A DNA stretch of 43,673 nucleotides from a virus: positions 1-43,673 of the IMG/VR virus record IMGVR_UViG_3300047563_000463; one strand, written 5' to 3'. This document shows, one piece after another, positions 1,159-39,049 of the stretch. Position 1 is the stretch's first letter, and every line of letters begins with the position of its first letter. The translations under genes and the position numbers were made by a program. The notes beneath the pieces are model-generated. The model was not told the origin of the DNA, ran no database searches, and saw only the letters and a program-made list of their open reading frames with translations.

Positions 1159-1818
1159 TCAACCTCGAACCTGACTCAGGAAATCATCAATTTGCCCTGC
1201 ATCATAGAATCCGCTAGAGGAATGTTTACCTCCTCTCATCACCCGGATCTTCCTCACTCCAACTTCAACCGGTACTTCAAAATCATTCTCATCCGCACCA
1301 TAGGATCTTAGAATTTTAACAACCTCCTTGTTCCCAACTCTTAATGCTTCACTTAAAGGGTAAGCATCTTTGTTATCATCCTCATCCCTAGTCCCTGCAA
1401 ACCCAACCTCACAATACTCGCACAATGCTTTAATGATGCTTAGATCGGGGTTCTTTTTACCACAAAGATAAAGAAGAGTCTGATGGACAATTTCATCTTT
1501 TCTCTGACCACCTAATTTTAAAAATTGAAGAATCAAAGGCTTAATTTGGCGTTGCCCAGCTTCAAAGAAGGCGCTTTTTTGATTTTTTGTCCAATAACTA
1601 TCCTTTAATTTTAACTCTTTTAAAAAATCAATCCCTTCCACCGCATAAGGATTTGCACCTTTACTCAAAAGTTCTTGAATCGAATCTTTTATTTTTTCAT
1701 ATCCATTGTCCACATTTTCCAAAATAAGAAAATAGAAATTCATATCCAATTTAGCCTGGATTTCAGGCCTTACTTTCTTATTAGTCAATGAAACAAAAGA
1801 ACTTTTAGCACTTGACAT
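1159..1818 (-). CDS. Ankyrin-like repeat protein (219 aa)
   Basis: Residues from about 40 to 185 show degenerate ankyrin-type helix pairs. The clearest are IQELLSKGANPYA and the late EALRVGNKEVVKILRSYGAD, which has the V-x-x-L-L-x-x-G-A-D signature. Ankyrin repeats normally mediate protein-protein contacts, and no catalytic motif is seen. The C-terminal 30 residues are basic and Gly/Ser-rich and lack repeats. A GGGAGCGG site precedes the ATG. It is the most divergent member of the four-gene minus-strand ankyrin block and lies just upstream of nrdB. A 99-base AT-rich gap separates it from the previous ankyrin gene and may hold its own weak promoter. The function is unknown; interaction with a host or eukaryotic target is inference. 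Confidence 0.8.
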   Translation of the reverse strand: MSSAKSSFVSLTNKKVRPEIQAKLDMNFYFLILENVDNGYEKIKDSIQELLSKGANPYAVEGIDFLKELKLKDSYWTKNQKSAFFEAGQRQIKPLILQFLKLGGQRKDEIVHQTLLYLCGKKNPDLSIIKALCEYCEVGFAGTRDEDDNKDAYPLSEALRVGNKEVVKILRSYGADENDFEVPVEVGVRKIRVMRGGKHSSSGFYDAGQIDDFLSQVRG

Positions 1819-1917
1819 AGACCGCTCCCTTTTATTTAAACCGCTCTAAAAACCTATTTCTTAGAACTTCTAAACTGTAACAAATTCCATTTTGTTTATC
1901 AAATTTACCGTCAAATT

Positions 1918-2574
1918 CTATTCATCTCTTATTAGAGGCGCAAAATCCATCCTGAAACACTCATTTTCTGAATAGAGACCCTTGATTATTTCACCCACAT
2001 CCCCGCGACATGAGATCGCGGGAACGCCACGTCTACGAAGTAGAGTGAATAGTAACGATCCACTATTTATCCCATTATCATTACGAGCTTCAAGTTTAGC
2101 TCCTTTGAGATATAATAAATCTAAAAATTCAAAATCCGAGGGATTCCAGATACGGCGGTCTTCTTCTAACATAGCCATTAGTAAAAGATGAAGCGGTGTA
2201 TTCCCATCATAATCAAATGAATTTATATCAATTCCGGAAGATAATAAATATTCAACTTGGTGGAATTGAATTGAAGTAGCTGCATAGTGTAAAAGGTTTT
2301 GACCTTTTTGATTCTTTATTTTTTTTACTTCTATTTTAAATTTTTCCTTAATTGCATCAAAGAGATAACTTCTTTCCTCACATAAGCAATAAAATAAAAG
2401 ACGGCTATCTAAAAATTTACACTTATCAAATAATCTTAAGATTTCCCCCCTACGATTATTTGATATACATTCTAAAAGATCTTGAAATTCTTTTTCCGAA
2501 TCTTTTTGGGCATTTAGACCTGCAGGCCCTTCAGTATTTTCAAGGATGGTAATCGTTCCCTCATAACTATACAT
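1918..2574 (-). CDS. Ankyrin repeat protein (218 aa)
   Basis: Canonical ankyrin motifs are visible at about residues 90-170: NLLHYAATSIQFHQVEYLL, then NTPLHLLLMAM, then LLYLKGAKLEARNDNG. The N-terminal 80 residues are helical and do not fit the consensus well. No signal peptide, membrane segment or enzyme motif is visible. An AGGAG site lies 8 bases before the ATG at 2574, inside the end of the preceding ankyrin gene, whose stop is 3 bases away. The two genes are therefore likely translationally coupled. It belongs to the four-gene ankyrin operon expressed from the promoter at 4092-4118. Confidence 0.85.
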   Translation of the reverse strand: MYSYEGTITILENTEGPAGLNAQKDSEKEFQDLLECISNNRRGEILRLFDKCKFLDSRLLFYCLCEERSYLFDAIKEKFKIEVKKIKNQKGQNLLHYAATSIQFHQVEYLLSSGIDINSFDYDGNTPLHLLLMAMLEEDRRIWNPSDFEFLDLLYLKGAKLEARNDNGINSGSLLFTLLRRRGVPAISCRGDVGEIIKGLYSENECFRMDFAPLIRDE

Positions 2575-2577
2575 TTT

Positions 2578-3210
2578 TTAAACTCCTAAAATTGAATGAG
2601 TTGATTGTGTTTTTGACGGAATACGGCCTCTCTGGATGCAGGCTCTAATCTCTGGGTCTTTTGCAAGATCAAGAGCTGTTTCACCTCCAAGGTTTTCTAT
2701 AGCTGTATTAGCCCCCAATTGAATTAGTGTTCGAACTGGACTTATTCCGTATCCATATAGAGCAGCTATATGTAACGGTGTATTTCCTTTGTAATTTTGA
2801 CTATCAATATCCGCACCAGAACGAACTAGTAATTTCATATTTCCTGGACAGCTATATAGAGCTGCTTTATGTAAGCAAGTATCACCATAAGAATTTTTTA
2901 CATTAGGGTCAGCCCCATTCTCTAAAAGCAGAGTCATTATTGAATCTGATAGCAAAGTATGGAACAAAGATGTGCAATCCAAAAAATCAACTTTATAATT
3001 TACATCAGCTCCGGATTTAATCAGAAGCTCAAGAATATCTAAATCCCGATAAAATCTGTATTTATGGGAGTATAAGTACGATGCTAAATATAAGGGAGTC
3101 CACCCTGAAACCTCTATATAATTTACGTTCACTCCCGATTGAATTAAGGACTTAACTAACTCCAAATCTGAGCTCTTAATTGCATCAAAAATACTTAAAT
3201 GTTTAATCAT
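2578..3210 (-). CDS. Ankyrin repeat protein (210 aa)
   Basis: Five to six ankyrin repeats cover nearly the whole protein. Visible units include GWTPLYLASYLYSH, DILELLIKSGADVNYK, GDTCLHKAALYS and NTPLHIAALYGYG, ending with GETALDLAKDPEIRACI. The N-terminus MIKHLSIFDAIKSSDLELVK aligns with that of the next ankyrin gene upstream (MLKDLTIFYAIQNDDLNTVK), so the two are recent paralogues. An AAGGA site precedes the ATG. No other domain is present. It is a repeat-only protein, probably cytosolic and acting by binding another protein; the target is unknown. Confidence 0.9.
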   Translation of the reverse strand: MIKHLSIFDAIKSSDLELVKSLIQSGVNVNYIEVSGWTPLYLASYLYSHKYRFYRDLDILELLIKSGADVNYKVDFLDCTSLFHTLLSDSIMTLLLENGADPNVKNSYGDTCLHKAALYSCPGNMKLLVRSGADIDSQNYKGNTPLHIAALYGYGISPVRTLIQLGANTAIENLGGETALDLAKDPEIRACIQRGRIPSKTQSTHSILGV

Positions 3211-3231
3211 GTAACAATCCTTTTTTCAAAA

Positions 3232-4026
3232 TTAAGTGGAAGGTACACTATGGCTTAGTATAAGCCTTCTCACCTCTTCATCCTTTGTGTAGTCCAAAGC
3301 TGTTTTACCTTCAAGGTCTTTTATAGTTGTATCAGCCCCAGATTCAATTAAAAATTTTGCAATAGTTAAATCTTTATAATATAACGCCATTACTAGGGGA
3401 GTGAAATTATAAAATTGTAAAGCATTTAAATCTGCCCCCTTTTCAACTAAAAATCTTACAGTACTTAAATCACCGCATTCAACAGCCTTATGCAAAGGGG
3501 TAAAATTTATATTGTCCTTGATATTTATGTCAGCCCCTAATTCAATTAATTTTTGAGCTATATTTAGTAACTTCAATATACAAGCTTTTGCTAAAGCTGA
3601 AGATCCTCCTACTGAACCTCGAAAATTAATATCCGCGCCATAACGGACGAGTAACTCAATCATTGGTAAGTTTTTATTCCAAACTGCCTCCAATAAGCAA
3701 GTTTTACCCCAATAGTCTCCTATATTAGGGTTCGCACCTTTATTTAGAAGTATCCTTACATGATCGAAATTATTTTGCATTATAGCTTTTAACAAAGGAG
3801 TTTCCCCGTAAGTTGTTTTACACTCTACATCAAAGCCTGACTCGATCAAAAATTCTAGTATTTCAGTATTATTTCTATTAAGTACTGAAAAATGAAGAAG
3901 TCCCCACCTCCCTGTTCCTTCCGCTCTTAGGTTTATGAAGAAGTCTTTTTGTTTTTTAATTAAAGACTTTACTGTATTTAAATCATCGTTTTGAATTGCA
4001 TAAAAAATAGTTAAATCTTTAAGCAT
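3232..4026 (-). CDS. Ankyrin repeat protein (264 aa), first gene of the ankyrin operon
   Basis: Seven or eight ankyrin repeats in tandem make up the whole protein. Examples are GLLHFSVLNRNNTEILEFLI, GETPLLKAIMQNNFDHVRIL, FTPLHKAVECGDLSTVRFLV and the last unit GKTALDYTKDEEVRRLIL. I moved the start from the in-frame codon at 4089 to the ATG at 4026. Three things support this: a GGAG site lies upstream, the N-terminus then aligns with the neighbouring paralogue, and the promoter at 4092-4118 would start transcription near 4085, downstream of 4089. It is the first gene of the four-gene ankyrin unit. Confidence 0.9.
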   Translation of the reverse strand: MLKDLTIFYAIQNDDLNTVKSLIKKQKDFFINLRAEGTGRWGLLHFSVLNRNNTEILEFLIESGFDVECKTTYGETPLLKAIMQNNFDHVRILLNKGANPNIGDYWGKTCLLEAVWNKNLPMIELLVRYGADINFRGSVGGSSALAKACILKLLNIAQKLIELGADINIKDNINFTPLHKAVECGDLSTVRFLVEKGADLNALQFYNFTPLVMALYYKDLTIAKFLIESGADTTIKDLEGKTALDYTKDEEVRRLILSHSVPST

Positions 4027-4091
4027 GTAACAAAGCTCCACTAAATTATGAATCGCGACTAATAGAACCATCCTATTAATCTTAAACATAA

Positions 4092-6090: not shown

Positions 6091-6154
6091 GTTTTATAGG
6101 TTCTAGGGAGGGGTTCCCTTGATCCGAAAGGGTTATCAAGAAAGGGTTGTTAGA

Positions 6155-6601
6155 ATGAACGAGTTCTCCAGTAAAGCGTTAGAAAAATTATTTATGGATT
6201 TGAATCATTCATTAACTTTCGGAGATGTTAGCCTGATGGAAAGTTGCCTAGAACGGGGGTTTCCGATTAATGCCCACTACTGGAATGGAACTGCGCTTTA
6301 TCATGCAGCTTCAAAGGGTCGGTTAGAACTTTGCAAATACTTATTGAGCAAAGGTGCGGATTCTGAAATTCACGGAAGTGATTCTGCACCTACCATGTTT
6401 GTTAGAACACCTTATCAAGTGGCTTATGAGAAAGGGTATACAAGTATTTGTGTACTCATCAGAGCTCACCAAAGACAACGAATTAAAGATATGAAGGCTG
6501 AATGGATTAAGGCTAGAGAAGATTTAGAAGATTTGGAATTAAGGGAGACGCACAGCCCCAGGGGCCACCGGGTCGAAGAAGCTTCTAAATTCCTGCCCTA
6601 A
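6155..6601 (+). CDS. Ankyrin repeat protein (148 aa), first gene of the plus-strand cassette
   Basis: Two to three ankyrin repeats are visible. The core GTALYHAASKGRLELCKYLL is followed by SKGADSEIHG, and then a charged C-terminal tail (residues about 110-148) lacking repeats. I chose the ATG at 6155 over an in-frame TTG at 6119. An AAAGGG site lies 8 bases before the ATG, and its N-terminus matches the next gene (FMDLNHSLTFGD versus FIDMNCVVTSGD). The two proteins are tandem duplicates. Short ankyrin proteins like this have too few repeats for a large scaffold and probably bind a single partner, which is unknown. Confidence 0.85.
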   Translation: MNEFSSKALEKLFMDLNHSLTFGDVSLMESCLERGFPINAHYWNGTALYHAASKGRLELCKYLLSKGADSEIHGSDSAPTMFVRTPYQVAYEKGYTSICVLIRAHQRQRIKDMKAEWIKAREDLEDLELRETHSPRGHRVEEASKFLP

Positions 6602-31194: not shown

Positions 31195-32514
31195 TTAACC
31201 TCCAGTCACTTTGCTAATTGCACTTGTACTTGCAGGTTTACCTGAATTCCCAGGACGTGATTGATCCATGGGCTTTTGACTCATAGTCGTAGGAGTATTC
31301 ATTTTCCTAGTTTCTATAGCCTTTAAACCATGTTTGTCTATTTCTTCTTTTATGAATGTACCGCCTTTGACGGCTAGATTCGCCCCTTGTACTATGAGAT
31401 TTACGATCTCAGCTTTTACATCCATTAAATTAGTGGCGATGTTTTTAGCAATATCTCCGCTTGTCACTGCATTACGAATTGCTGCCCCCATTTCTAATTG
31501 AGCTCCTTTAAAATCTAATATTTCAGATTGGAGTTGTGCCCCTGTATGAAATGGATTTTGACCTCCTTTAGTCGCAACATTATAAACTTTCTCTGCTCTT
31601 TCTTTTACATCTTTTTGATATATAAATCTTCTCGAATCTGCTTCCTCATCTCCATACCCTAATCTCCTCAGCATAGCTGTACGGATCATGGGGTCTTGGC
31701 CTTTGTATGCTTTATTTACTGACTCATAAACTTTTTGATTAGTCGCTGCAAGATTCCCCCCAGACTTCAAAAGGAGATCTCGAGGGTCAATATTCAAAGC
31801 CATCAAAATTTGAGTTTTTTCTTGAGATAAGCCCCCTAGTAGCTCATCTGCAAACCTTTGATTTGAATCTATAATCGTATCAAGGGAAGTCCCTGCTAGC
31901 TCTGCTTGTTTTTGTAATTTATATAACTTCTCTACTGACATCCCTGTTTGGTAATTAAGTTGTCGAAAATGCATATCCTCTGAGATTCTATTATCCAAAT
32001 AAGGAACTACTTTTTCTAGATTCCCTGATACTTTGTTAGCTACCTTTGAAAACAATTCCCCAAAAGCAGCACCAATCTTAGCTCCAATAAGAGGGCTACC
32101 TACAAGGAGTCCTAATACCCCTCCGATAGTTCCTCCCGCAGCAGTCCCTGCACTAGGTATCGGGTTCTTCATAAGGGAGTCTGAAGCCCCTTTATTTCGA
32201 TCCTCAGACCCCATTTTTTTTATAGAATTCTTAAGCCCTTCTCCCTCCTTTTTAGTAACCTCTACAAATTCTTGAGAATTTACTTTTATATCTTTTAATA
32301 AACCTACAACATCCTCAGTTGCTCGACTAGCTTGGGCGGAATCTGAATCTTTCTGTTTAGGGAACGGAATTACGCCATTTGATGCCAGCTTACTTGCTCG
32401 AACTTCACCCTCTTCTTTTAGCTCTGCGATTTTCTTTTTCAATAAATCTAAATCTGTGAAATCGACTTTAGTGCCGATCTCTATGATTAACTCATTCTCC
32501 GCAGTCTGGCTCAT
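31195..32514 (-). CDS. Tape measure protein (439 aa)
   Basis: The protein starts with a helical, charged region (residues about 15-60), then a Gly/Ala-rich hydrophobic segment near residues 123-155 (AGTAAGGTIGGVLGLLVGSP), then long helices. That is the usual form of a tape measure, with a membrane-active central part. At about 0.15 nm per residue it predicts a tail near 65 nm, a short contractile tail. It directly follows the tail-assembly chaperones, and the -1 frame of the chaperone fusion overlaps its first 23 bases. It is the most likely tape measure because no longer gene exists in the tail block. Confidence 0.82.
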   Translation of the reverse strand: MSQTAENELIIEIGTKVDFTDLDLLKKKIAELKEEGEVRASKLASNGVIPFPKQKDSDSAQASRATEDVVGLLKDIKVNSQEFVEVTKKEGEGLKNSIKKMGSEDRNKGASDSLMKNPIPSAGTAAGGTIGGVLGLLVGSPLIGAKIGAAFGELFSKVANKVSGNLEKVVPYLDNRISEDMHFRQLNYQTGMSVEKLYKLQKQAELAGTSLDTIIDSNQRFADELLGGLSQEKTQILMALNIDPRDLLLKSGGNLAATNQKVYESVNKAYKGQDPMIRTAMLRRLGYGDEEADSRRFIYQKDVKERAEKVYNVATKGGQNPFHTGAQLQSEILDFKGAQLEMGAAIRNAVTSGDIAKNIATNLMDVKAEIVNLIVQGANLAVKGGTFIKEEIDKHGLKAIETRKMNTPTTMSQKPMDQSRPGNSGKPASTSAISKVTGG

Positions 32515-33024
32515 TTAAAGTCGCCTCTTTCTCTAAAGCTATGTAGGCTTCATAATCACCTAATGTCCAGGAATTGAAAATTTCAATGTATGAACCTAAA
32601 CCCCTTTTAGAAAGCATCATTGAGATACGTTTAAAACAAATCTTTTTTAAAGCTTCACCTAAACTCTCCGATTCAATTCTTCTTGCTCTTAAAGGGTTAT
32701 CGGAATGATCCTTTGAGCTTTTGAAAAAAAACCAAAGTTAAACTCAAAAAAGGCGGTTAGTAATGGGAGAAAACAATCTACGTGCTCATCTAAATCACTT
32801 AAGGATAAGTTGGACTCATTTCTTTTATGCTTAATGTTTTTACACATAACTTTTTGAATCAACTCCCAATCTCCCTCGGATAATTGACCAAATATGTTCA
32901 GATCCCCGAGAAGCATTTTCATGACGGAATTTGAAACAAATGAAAATATACTATTCGCTTCTTTTAGACTGATTTTATGGATAACCAAATCCAAATCATC
33001 CATCTGAAATTCCTTAGTGTCCAT
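32492..33024 (-). CDS. Tail-assembly chaperone fusion made by a programmed -1 frameshift (about 177 aa)
   Basis: In the -1 frame after the run of eight T residues (minus strand, opposite A 32724-32731) an open frame runs without a stop from the end of the 111-residue gene to a TGA at 32494-32492, inside the tape measure gene. The slippery heptamer T TTT TTT occupies 32731-32725 in the right phase: zero frame TTT-TTT, next -1 codon TTC. The added 77 residues are well-formed protein (for example RARRIESESLGEALKKIC and LGSYIEIFNSWTLGDYEAY). Lambda G/GT and P2 E/E+E' use the same device at the same place before the tape measure, P2 at T TTT TTG. Confidence 0.8.
32689..33024 (-). CDS. Tail-assembly chaperone, unshifted product (111 aa)
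   Basis: This is the zero-frame product, equivalent in position to lambda gpG or P2 gpE. The ATG at 33024 has an AAGGAG site 7 bases upstream and overlaps the end of the preceding gene; in-frame TTG codons before it are unlikely starts. The protein is helical and acidic (SLSDLDEHVDCFLPLLTAFF). The frameshift site lies nine codons before its stop, so most of it is shared with the fusion product. It should bind the tape measure during tail assembly and be absent from mature virions. Confidence 0.8.
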   Translation of the reverse strand: MDTKEFQMDDLDLVIHKISLKEANSIFSFVSNSVMKMLLGDLNIFGQLSEGDWELIQKVMCKNIKHKRNESNLSLSDLDEHVDCFLPLLTAFFEFNFGFFSKAQRIIPITL

Positions 33025-33445
33025 CAACAAACTCCTTAATCTTTAATTTAAACTGTGTAGGGTCCCGGAGGGCTAGAAGATCCCAATCCTCCTGTCGATC
33101 AGATCCAGCATTCATGTAGTTCAATACGTAATCTTTATATGTGAGAATGAGCTCTTTGTATACCCTAAAGATACATTCATTCATAAGTGTCTTATTTGAA
33201 TAGTCGATATCTTTTATTTCTTGAAGATATAGCTTGAAGTGATAAGAGGATATACCCTGTTTCAAATAATGAATGTTATATATGAAATCAAATACATTTT
33301 CTGGGTAGAGGGAGTGGGTTAGTTTTAATTCTTTTTCAAATTCCATGCAGAAATTGTATTTGATTTTAGACAGATCTGCTCGGATATTTTTTATATGCTC
33401 CCGCCTGAATAAGACAAGTAATTTATCAACTACAAACGGAAGCAT
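33014..33445 (-). CDS. Uncharacterised tail-region protein (143 aa)
   Basis: The start is an ATG at 33445 with an AAAGGG site upstream; a TTG two codons earlier is less likely. The protein is mostly helical (FRREHIKNIRADLSKIKYNF, MNECIFRVYKELILTYKDYV) with no motif I know. It sits between the tail tube and chaperone genes and overlaps the latter by 11 bases. In related small myophages this slot often holds a short tail protein or an extra chaperone. It may assist tube or tape-measure assembly, but nothing in the sequence shows it. Confidence 0.75.
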   Translation of the reverse strand: MLPFVVDKLLVLFRREHIKNIRADLSKIKYNFCMEFEKELKLTHSLYPENVFDFIYNIHYLKQGISSYHFKLYLQEIKDIDYSNKTLMNECIFRVYKELILTYKDYVLNYMNAGSDRQEDWDLLALRDPTQFKLKIKEFVDGH

Positions 33446-33463
33446 AATCAACCCTTTCTTTTA

Positions 33464-33889
33464 TTAAACTCTAATCGTGTTATGCAGGAGTATTGTGAAC
33501 TCCCTATACATATCTGCTGCATTCACTGAGTATGTCTCATCTGGAAATCTTTGTATATGAGAATTTGTACTCAATGTCGTATCAAGCAGGTAATCAGTAT
33601 TTGTAAAACTACTTAGTAAGTAAACCCCAGTAGATCTAAATAAAGTAGCTGCGATCTTCATCAGTTGATATGATGGGTTATCAAAAGACATCCTGAGTTT
33701 TGCAGTACTCGTATTATCTGCAATAAGGTTAATATGTAATTCCCCATCCGCACCTACATCCTTATTTGAAATGTCAGAACTGGGTGTGATGGTAAGGTAG
33801 GTCCCTGAAGCAAGGCCTGTAATAGGGATACCTACTGCTAAAATGATTTGATGCTCTGGGTTAAACGCCATTCTTGAAACATTTGCCAT
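33464..33889 (-). CDS. Tail tube protein, DUF3277-like
   Basis: It forms the inner tube of the contractile tail (141 residues). The pattern SDISNKDVGADGELHINLIA, then STAKLRMSFDNPSYQLM in the first half matches the DUF3277-type tube proteins, which show a D-x-G-x-x-G strand followed by S/T-A-x-[LV]-x-[MF]. The small size and the position directly after the sheath gene fit. It is expected to be made in many copies. Confidence 0.85.
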   Translation of the reverse strand: MANVSRMAFNPEHQIILAVGIPITGLASGTYLTITPSSDISNKDVGADGELHINLIADNTSTAKLRMSFDNPSYQLMKIAATLFRSTGVYLLSSFTNTDYLLDTTLSTNSHIQRFPDETYSVNAADMYREFTILLHNTIRV

Positions 33890-33915: not shown

Positions 33916-35391
33916 TTAAAGCCCGAGATTGACTGTTAATGAAACTCTATGAATCCGGCTCAAGAAAGTAGCATTGAATGTAAGATCTTGGTAAACTCGG
34001 TTTGTAATATCCGCTAAACTGACTTCTCTATATGTTTTGTATACAAAATCCGAGTTTTGAAACGGTTGAATAACTTGCAAATCTACTAATTTTTGAGCAG
34101 ACCCCTTTACCGTGGATAGAATCTGTTGAATTCCAGTATCATTAAAAGGTAAGGACCCTGTAATTTGAGAGTTAACAAGTAAGTTTGTCAAATCTGCTTG
34201 TGTGACCACTTGAAGATAATCTGCACCTACTACTTGATCTAAATAAATCCGGGTTGTGGGGGTGGAACTTGTTGCATGCCCATATTGCAATAAGGCTAAA
34301 GATGTTCCAAACAAAGCATAAATGTTATTGTTCCAACCTGTAAGATTTGCAAATCCAGACGTAGTATCCGGTTGTCCAATAGTCGTTGTAGTTACAAAGG
34401 GGTCAGTTGGTTGACCTTTCAATTGTGTTGAAGATAGGCATTTCAACCCAACCCCTGTTTTAAACAAATCTGTAAAATACTCAGCTAAAAATGCGCCATG
34501 GATTGAAGGCCGAACAGACGCACTGTAAAATTGAAAATGTTGGCTATGCTCCAGAATCAGAATTGAGTTGCTGCCACCAAAAGCTGTTTGCACTTCTCTA
34601 GCCACTACGGGGTCATTCGCGGGTAGAAAAAGATATTTTAGATTGTTATCTGCCCTTAAAGCCGCCAACATACTTGTCAATCCGGTGGTCGGAGTCATAA
34701 TACCAGAAAGATGATTTGTTGCTGCAAGTAAATTATCAACTTGAGAAATCTCAGGGAAAGAACCAACTAACCCATCAAAATTATGGGCGGGGACCGCGGT
34801 AATGCCGTCTCGACTAAAAAAAGGAACTCTATAAGTTCCTGCAGTGGGTATATAAAAATCTTGAGCTATAAAGTAAGGAGCAGTTGTTGTGACGCCTCCA
34901 GATAATTGTGTATCGGCTCTCAATAAAACAGCGGAAGTTGTAGTAATTAAAGCGATCACCCTGGAATATTCATTTTCTAGTATCATATCACATATAGTGA
35001 ACCCATAAAAATCATTATTTTTTGAAATAATATTCTGCATTACTGATGAATAATTCACATTTGCGAATTGAATAGCAATTCTACCTACTTGTAAAATATT
35101 AGGTGTCAACCTTTGAGAAAAAAAAGCAGCGCATGTATCTAAAAAATGTTGAATATTATTAGCTTGGAGTGTATCCCCATTTGAAATTACTAAAGAAAGT
35201 ACAGGTGCAAAATCTGTTTGAAGAGTAATTAAATCTGTATAGGTATGCGTATAGCTGCTATATGGGAACCAAGTACTAGGAAATGCATCAAACACCCCAA
35301 TAATCATACAATTATTAAAAGACTGAGGTTGAATAACAGTTGTATTAATTGATACATTGACTTTTGCTAACCAGCTGGTAGATACACTCAC
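33916..35391 (-). CDS. Tail sheath protein, DUF3383-like
   Basis: The contractile sheath subunit (491 residues). The N-terminal VSINTTVIQPQSFNNCMIIG, the DTCAAFFSQRLTPNILQVGR segment and the C-terminal YKTYREVSLADITNRVYQDL followed by TFNATFLSRIHRVSLTVNLG fit the DUF3383 sheath family, in which N- and C-terminal arms weave adjacent subunits. The middle part (about residues 150-400) is the variable outer domain. The sheath defines this phage as a myovirus. It overlaps the neck terminator gene as ATGA and is followed by the tube gene. Confidence 0.9.
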   Translation of the reverse strand: MSVSTSWLAKVNVSINTTVIQPQSFNNCMIIGVFDAFPSTWFPYSSYTHTYTDLITLQTDFAPVLSLVISNGDTLQANNIQHFLDTCAAFFSQRLTPNILQVGRIAIQFANVNYSSVMQNIISKNNDFYGFTICDMILENEYSRVIALITTTSAVLLRADTQLSGGVTTTAPYFIAQDFYIPTAGTYRVPFFSRDGITAVPAHNFDGLVGSFPEISQVDNLLAATNHLSGIMTPTTGLTSMLAALRADNNLKYLFLPANDPVVAREVQTAFGGSNSILILEHSQHFQFYSASVRPSIHGAFLAEYFTDLFKTGVGLKCLSSTQLKGQPTDPFVTTTTIGQPDTTSGFANLTGWNNNIYALFGTSLALLQYGHATSSTPTTRIYLDQVVGADYLQVVTQADLTNLLVNSQITGSLPFNDTGIQQILSTVKGSAQKLVDLQVIQPFQNSDFVYKTYREVSLADITNRVYQDLTFNATFLSRIHRVSLTVNLGL

Positions 35392-37276: not shown

Positions 37277-38434
37277 TTATTCTGCTGGGTTATTAAGTCC
37301 AGTAATTTTGTAAATAAATTCAGGACGCTTTACAACAAGCCCAGCTGAGTTTAGCTGATATCCATAACGATAAGATGTTGTAGCGCCATCATAATCTGTT
37401 GGATAAGGTAGAGGGGCCCCTGCTGTTGCAAGCTCAATATTCATAGGGTCATTAATATACATATACCCTACAGTTTTATCTGTGAATATAGGTAGCCCAG
37501 CAAGACGAAGTTGAAGGTTGTCTGTTAAAATTTGCCAAAGGGGTTGACCTAGAAGGTCGCTATACGCTTTTCTGAAAGTTCCAATATTATCAATGGAGGA
37601 GATGAAAGAGAAGTCTTTCTCTCTTAGAATCCCTTTGTAAACCCCTCTAATCAATGCTTGAATCCGTACAAACTCATTTTGAATATCAGAAGGTTTTGCC
37701 GCAGGGTCTAAAAGCTTAGGTCCTTGCCAAGGAATAGAGGGAATCAATGTGTGTTCAAATAACCCATTCCTGTAAGGGAGTGTATACCCTCCAGCATATC
37801 GATAGTGAAAAGCATAATTTTGTTCTTCCTTAGCTAGTTCCATACCGCAGCTATTCGTTAGGATGTCAATTAAGGGGATTTGTTGAGATACTGCGATGTC
37901 GAGTTCGTCTACCGATACTGCAAATCCTATTTTAAATTTTTCAACCATACGATCAATAGAATCTGCCCGAGCCTGGATATATCTCATACTTGCATTGACA
38001 ACCCCCATCCTACTATCTTCAGGAGTCAAACTACTCGTAGGGGTATTTGCAGTTGTACCTGTAACTCCGACTCCCCTAATGATGTATGAAACATCTGTCG
38101 GCTTTATTCTAGTGGTTTCATAAAAAATCCTCTCATTAGGGTAATTATCAAATGTAGCTCTCAGCATGCTTGTTTCAACAAGCTGCCTAACAATTCTCTC
38201 ATCAAAATTAATTGAAGTTTCATAAAGTTGCAATCCGTAATTGGCATCTAGGACTTTACCAGTAGCTTGGCTTCTGGTTCCAAATCGGGATTTAAAAAGA
38301 GGTAAAAATCTTTCAAAACTATTTTCAGATTCTTCAAATCCTCCATCTACCCTTTGTTTAAAAATACGGGCGTAGTCAGATTCTGATCTGATCAATTTAT
38401 TTTTAAATTTGTCCATACTTGAATATTGAGACAT
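37277..38434 (-). CDS. Major capsid protein (DUF2184-type, HK97 fold)
   Basis: The protein of 385 residues sits between cement protein and connector genes, where the major capsid gene belongs. Patterns fitting the DUF2184-like capsid family are LRATFDNYPNERIFYETTRI, KIGFAVSVDELDIAVSQQIP and a C-terminal region with YKITGLNN. An AAGGAT site precedes the ATG. No long N-terminal delta domain is evident, in agreement with a separate scaffold fused to the protease gene upstream. It should be the most abundant head protein. Confidence 0.85.
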   Translation of the reverse strand: MSQYSSMDKFKNKLIRSESDYARIFKQRVDGGFEESENSFERFLPLFKSRFGTRSQATGKVLDANYGLQLYETSINFDERIVRQLVETSMLRATFDNYPNERIFYETTRIKPTDVSYIIRGVGVTGTTANTPTSSLTPEDSRMGVVNASMRYIQARADSIDRMVEKFKIGFAVSVDELDIAVSQQIPLIDILTNSCGMELAKEEQNYAFHYRYAGGYTLPYRNGLFEHTLIPSIPWQGPKLLDPAAKPSDIQNEFVRIQALIRGVYKGILREKDFSFISSIDNIGTFRKAYSDLLGQPLWQILTDNLQLRLAGLPIFTDKTVGYMYINDPMNIELATAGAPLPYPTDYDGATTSYRYGYQLNSAGLVVKRPEFIYKITGLNNPAE

Positions 38435-38446
38435 AAATAATAATCC

Positions 38447-39049
38447 TTAAATAGTTTCAATTGTTAGAGGGTTAAATAAAGGAGCAATAGTAAAAGGGAA
38501 TACGGCTGTTGTAATACTGATGGGTACGATTCCTGCAGACGCGATATTCCCAACAAAGAACCAAGGGGTGAGTACAAAATTTGCCCCATCCGAGCTATTG
38601 GAAACTGTACCTACTCGTTGAGTTGCCGGGTTTGGAGCAAATTTACGAACGTATACTGCTTGCCCATGTAATGCGGGAGTTTCACAGTGAACTGCTACAT
38701 CTCCATGGTCCACAATCGCTCCCCAGGACCCATCTACTAATCCGTCACCACTTGATAGGGTGGGAACCCCAGAAGAATTGACAGACTTAAAATTATTGCG
38801 TTGCGTAAGGAGTAAAGCTCCAAATGCTTTAAATTGCCCAAATCCTGCATCATCCAACGATTTCAAATAAGCGCCAGACTGAAGAGGGACAACTTGCGTA
38901 TAGGACGCATAAGCTACGATTGTTCCAAAATAAAGAATAGGTGTGGTTGCAGTAGTTTTACATGTTCCAGTAAGAGTATGACTAGGGTTACTCGATACTA
39001 ATTGGCCAGGTAAATTAGCTGAGGGGTTGATATTTGGAATATATGCCAT
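38447..39049 (-). CDS. Capsid cement/decoration protein, Gp24-like (200 aa)
   Basis: A beta-rich, Gly/Ser/Ala-rich protein immediately before the major capsid gene. DGSWGAIVDHGDVAVHCETP and LHGQAVYVRKFA resemble the structural cement proteins of related phages (family named after Gp24), which stabilise the shell at threefold or quasi-threefold sites. An AGAGG site precedes the ATG. It is expected at a copy number similar to the capsid protein. Confidence 0.78.
   Translation of the reverse strand: MAYIPNINPSANLPGQLVSSNPSHTLTGTCKTTATTPILYFGTIVAYASYTQVVPLQSGAYLKSLDDAGFGQFKAFGALLLTQRNNFKSVNSSGVPTLSSGDGLVDGSWGAIVDHGDVAVHCETPALHGQAVYVRKFAPNPATQRVGTVSNSSDGANFVLTPWFFVGNIASAGIVPISITTAVFPFTIAPLFNPLTIETI

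Follow-up and report, generated by a model that had tools for sequence, protein, structure and literature searches.

In phages lambda (G/GT) and P2 (E/E+E'), a tail-assembly chaperone is produced in two forms by a -1 shift and its gene lies immediately upstream of the tape-measure gene. The locus described here shares this two-product -1 layout before the tape measure, a likeness of arrangement, and the slippery sequence of lambda, which is not a T run, differs from the one found here. Under the model for lambda, both gpG and gpGT attach to the tape measure and tube subunits are brought in by the T domain, and -1 G-T frameshifting is widely conserved in long-tailed double-stranded DNA phages (PMC5009743). 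A frameshifted tape-measure chaperone is also stated in the genome papers of phages Moogle and Mijalis (PMC4319497, PMC5543628).

Here we analyse the genome of an uncultivated virus, of which the whole 43,673-nucleotide stretch is referred to as the window. One of its genes is very probably a lambda G/GT-type chaperone, with short and fusion forms made by -1 ribosomal slippage. The Ounavirinae chaperones (e.g. those of Moogle and Mijalis) resemble it in gene position and in the phase of the heptamer at homologous NFG(S)FF codons; their heptamer is T TTT TTC, and their -1 frame ends at the tape-measure start. The window differs from Ounavirinae in having U_UUU_UUU instead of U_UUU_UUC, no upstream Shine-Dalgarno-like element and an additional ORF (33014-33451) that separates tube from chaperone; its protein is also shorter and has diverged strongly, with about 18% identity in a global alignment to the profile of the relatives. 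Pseudoalteromonas phage H101 and Vibrio phage ICP1, share with the window an in-phase T TTT TTT at the homologous motif, and their -1 frame stays open until close to the tape measure. Unlike the window, both have an AAGGAG-like sequence upstream of the slip site. Neither chaperone is annotated as a joined frameshift gene.

Tail module and gene order

The window carries a contractile-tail module on its minus strand, in the order sheath, tube, one extra ORF, chaperone and tape measure, with the first two genes and the last identified by PHROG profile (Table 1). By these matches the chaperone gene lies between tail tube and tape measure, the position that characterizes the lambda G/GT class. The extra ORF has no annotated counterpart at its position in the relatives examined. 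Its tblastn match was weak (E 9) and set in unrelated gene surroundings, and was discarded; its structure model (pLDDT about 41) is too poor for use.

Table 1. Features of the tail module and slip site in the window
Feature	Position	Strand	Evidence or remarks
IMG/VR virus record IMGVR_UViG_3300047563_000463	1-43,673		Metagenomic, single record, uncultivated
Tail sheath protein	33916..35391	-	PHROG 205 tail sheath, E 1.6e-20; tblastn to H101, VPs20 and Ounavirinae tail sheaths
Tail tube-like protein	33464..33889	-	PHROG 280 virion structural protein, E 1.9e-11
Extra ORF, 145 aa	33014-33451	-	No recognisable relatives
Putative short tail-assembly chaperone (gpG-like), 0-frame ORF, 111 aa	32689..33024	-	ORF; sub-threshold Pfam/PHROG; position between tube and tape measure
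Slippery heptamer T_TTT_TTT, inside a run of eight Ts	32725..32731	-	X_XXY_YYZ phase in the 0-frame
Possible stimulatory hairpin, from 6 nt after the heptamer	32685..32718	-	dG -8.9 kcal/mol; weak
Putative -1 extension (gpT-like domain of the fusion), 77 codons + TGA	32492..32725	-	Open frame; codon usage; profile match
Tape-measure protein, 439 aa	31195..32514	-	PHROG 8125 tail length tape measure, E 1.8e-6

Other regions of the window are also distinctive. At least seven ankyrin-repeat proteins are encoded at 1159-4089 (minus strand) and 6634-8268 (plus strand) by matches to Pfam Ank families, that at 1159-1818 being sub-threshold, and the ORF at 6119-6601 resembles ankyrin-repeat proteins by eye; this ankyrin density is unusual for one phage genome. 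A SocA/Panacea-domain antitoxin-like protein adjoins a ThyX-type thymidylate synthase at 10894-12167 (minus strand).

The slip site and the open -1 frame

The short product is 111 aa long when read from the ATG at 33024, which has AAGGAG 7 nt upstream; an alternative start, TTG at 33030, would add two residues (113 aa). On the minus strand the 0-frame ends ...TTT AAC TTT GGT TTT TTT TCA AAA GCT CAA AGG ATC ATT CCG ATA ACC CTT TAA. An earlier note had the short gene ending in GGT TTT TTT TCA; the T run is there, but the ORF continues for 11 codons beyond the slip site, to 32689. Its placement of an in-phase T_TTT_TTT at 32731-32725 on the minus strand holds, as do the 77 open codons of the -1 frame, whose TGA ends at 32492 and which overlaps the first 23 nt of the tape-measure ORF (ATG 32514). 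The gap between the 0-frame stop and the tape measure, put earlier at about 175 bases, measures 174 nt.

When the segment is resampled under a first-order Markov model, 77 codons stay open with a probability of about 0.005. In-phase T6/T7 heptamers are not rare in the window (21 over 13,539 codon positions, T7 accounting for ten; about 0.025 expected within the 16-codon overlap), and a lone heptamer therefore proves little. The T7 heptamer is uninformative by itself; what is informative is its place inside the open -1 overlap, together with its conservation.

The -1 frame also has coding character up to the tape-measure start, as in the lambda G/GT class. Scored over 32725-32515 against the window's own codon usage, it reaches 0.198 bits/codon, where true genes have a median of 0.218 and out-of-frame 70-codon controls from the window a median of -0.79, none of the latter attaining 0.198. 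Its first 39 codons hold no ATG, GTG or TTG, so separate translation of the entire extension is unlikely. That the -1 ORF is instead an independent small gene, translated from a start of its own, is exceedingly improbable, even though the open frame contains ATG ATG after about 40 codons and the annotation of some relatives lists a small gene by itself at this place (H101 gp011, BUCT696 gp53, Sf14 gp115). Initiation at the ATG ATG would leave out the first half of a frame that has coding character, inspection by eye shows no Shine-Dalgarno-like sequence ahead of it, and the corresponding frame of relatives extends upstream beyond the slip site.

Conservation in homologous tail modules

The comparative set comprised 19 relatives, namely 18 phage records and L026, an uncultivated IMG/VR phage, and spans Ounavirinae, Chaseviridae, H101, ICP1, a Vequintavirinae phage, L026 and others. 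Distant relatives were reached by sheath tblastn, and others by chaperone searches seeded from those matches; L026 was reached via the protein downstream of the tape measure. In 16 of the 19, T TTT TTC or T TTT TTT occurs in 0-frame phase at homologous codons, and the open -1 frame reaches the tape-measure start or its vicinity, its end ranging from 57 nt short of that start to 14 nt inside it where the start is known. Such conservation of the arrangement in homologous phages is a mark of the lambda G/GT class. The slip site falls within a motif of the N-[F/Y]-x-FF type (FNFGFF in the window, ANFGSFF in Moogle, NFEGFF in H101, NFLDFF in GJ1 and ANSFF in L026). PAK_P3 and PAK_P5 (L015 1800-2102 and L024 1731-2033) have an open -1 frame with GTTTTTC and no strict X_XXY_YYZ heptamer, and pAh6-C is unreadable as one ORF from the homologous start. 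The frameshift is annotated as a joined CDS in the Moogle record; in many records of relatives the extension is annotated as a separate small gene or left out.

A check for stop codons in the -1 frame of homologous phages thus did not refute the earlier proposal of a programmed -1 frameshift that makes a tail-chaperone fusion. The same heptamer type with an open -1 frame in 16 of the 19 relatives supports it, the fusion product itself being predicted. The same comparison bears on two other accounts of the T run. A one-base assembly error at T8 that split one long chaperone gene, or a real inactivating mutation, might be suspected in a single metagenomic record, homopolymers being error-prone, but is highly improbable given that independent cultured phages share the two-frame layout at the same codons. 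RNA polymerase slippage on T8, which would yield the -1 product from mRNAs that have gained one U or lost two, has a precedent in some bacterial elements, where transcriptional slippage replaces ribosomal slippage (PMC5009743), and the run of eight Ts is one longer than the heptamer needs. Because the T run of relatives is only six or seven long (TTTTTTC, TTTTTTTA) and keeps strict X_XXY_YYZ phase, we prefer ribosomal slippage and regard slippage by the polymerase as the source of the -1 product as very unlikely.

Searches of IMG/VR with the fusion, sheath, tube, capsid and tape-measure proteins returned no relative that spans the slip site. The terminase search led to the close relative L002, with a 91% identical terminase; L002 stops before the sheath gene, and for this reason there is no close relative across the slip site. 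The other terminase matches examined (L003 and L005) showed no tail module and were dropped. No matches were returned by tblastn of the fusion against phages or by a genome-contig search with the protein adjoining the sheath, and a genome-contig search with the terminase gave only distant terminases, mostly from Alphaproteobacteria.

The comparison with L002 also revealed uneven divergence in the head genes. A major-capsid-like protein and the protein preceding it, in window 37277-39049 (minus strand) and L002 4725-6462, are 43% and 40% identical, respectively, compared with 83-91% for the other genes compared. This low identity suggests a head-gene swap or fast divergence.

Profile comparisons of the fusion

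The fusion matches Pfam Phage_TAC_15 (TAC_15) with an E value of 0.0068 and 17.4 bits, below the cut-off of 22, and PHROG 1613 tail assembly chaperone weakly (E 0.028), so that the window chaperone lies under the cut-off of either family. A PDB search by sequence found no relative, and the structure model of the 0-frame chaperone (pLDDT about 41) was left unused.

Comparison with chaperones of related phages, which the earlier note had proposed as a check, bore out its reading in rank but not in absolute score. Against the alignment of relatives the fusion outscores every control, whether another protein of the window, either half by itself or a shuffle, at an absolute probability of only 7%, or 14% when L026 is added to the profile. 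When the N-terminal part was kept intact and the -1 extension shuffled, none of 60 trials reached the real score in either local or global mode, a result that supports the -1 reading specifically. Homology rests chiefly on position and the slip-site motif; the window gene would work like the TAC_15/PHROG 1613 chaperones as a homologue by position and motif, not as a scored member of either family.

Candidate stimulatory elements

The possible hairpin downstream of the heptamer has a z-score of -1.8 on a 51-nt fold, with 14 of 200 shuffles equally stable; with 61 nt folded the z-score is -0.5, and 105 nt adopt another structure. Rfam matches were sub-threshold snoRNAs only and were taken as chance. 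An upstream Shine-Dalgarno-like stimulator was tested for at the slip site of the window and is absent, whereas several Ounavirinae relatives have one. Strong anti-Shine-Dalgarno pairing upstream of the slip site occurs in Moogle, Sf14, wV8, Wc4-1, H101 and ICP1 and, as in the window, is not strong in most Chaseviridae, a descriptive difference only; several relatives likewise lack the upstream element. It is conceivable, though unlikely, that the T8 run acts without a strong stimulator on either the 5' or the 3' side, in part perhaps through RNA polymerase slippage, and that the ratio of short to long product is set differently from that in the Ounavirinae relatives.

Proposed mechanism and significance

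Under -1 ribosomal slippage, most ribosomes would terminate at 32689 and release the 111-aa G-like protein. In a minority, both tRNAs would move back one base on UUU UUU (32730-32725) into the -1 frame, yielding a G-T-like fusion of 177 aa. By analogy with lambda, the short form may coat the tape measure, the extra domain of the fusion may recruit tail-tube subunits, and neither form would stay in the virion. The slippery site, its phase, the coding character of the -1 frame and the conservation in homologous tail modules are direct observations; slippage, its efficiency and these binding roles are inferred.

The window gene is a divergent additional member of the lambda G/GT class, and the event is of a kind already known and one that a specialist would expect at this position. 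It alters no open question, and its practical use lies in correct gene calls. The analysis adds a divergent lineage of uncultivated myoviruses to those with this well-known recoding event, and the comparative set places one slip site at constant codons across Ounavirinae, Chaseviridae, H101, ICP1 and others.
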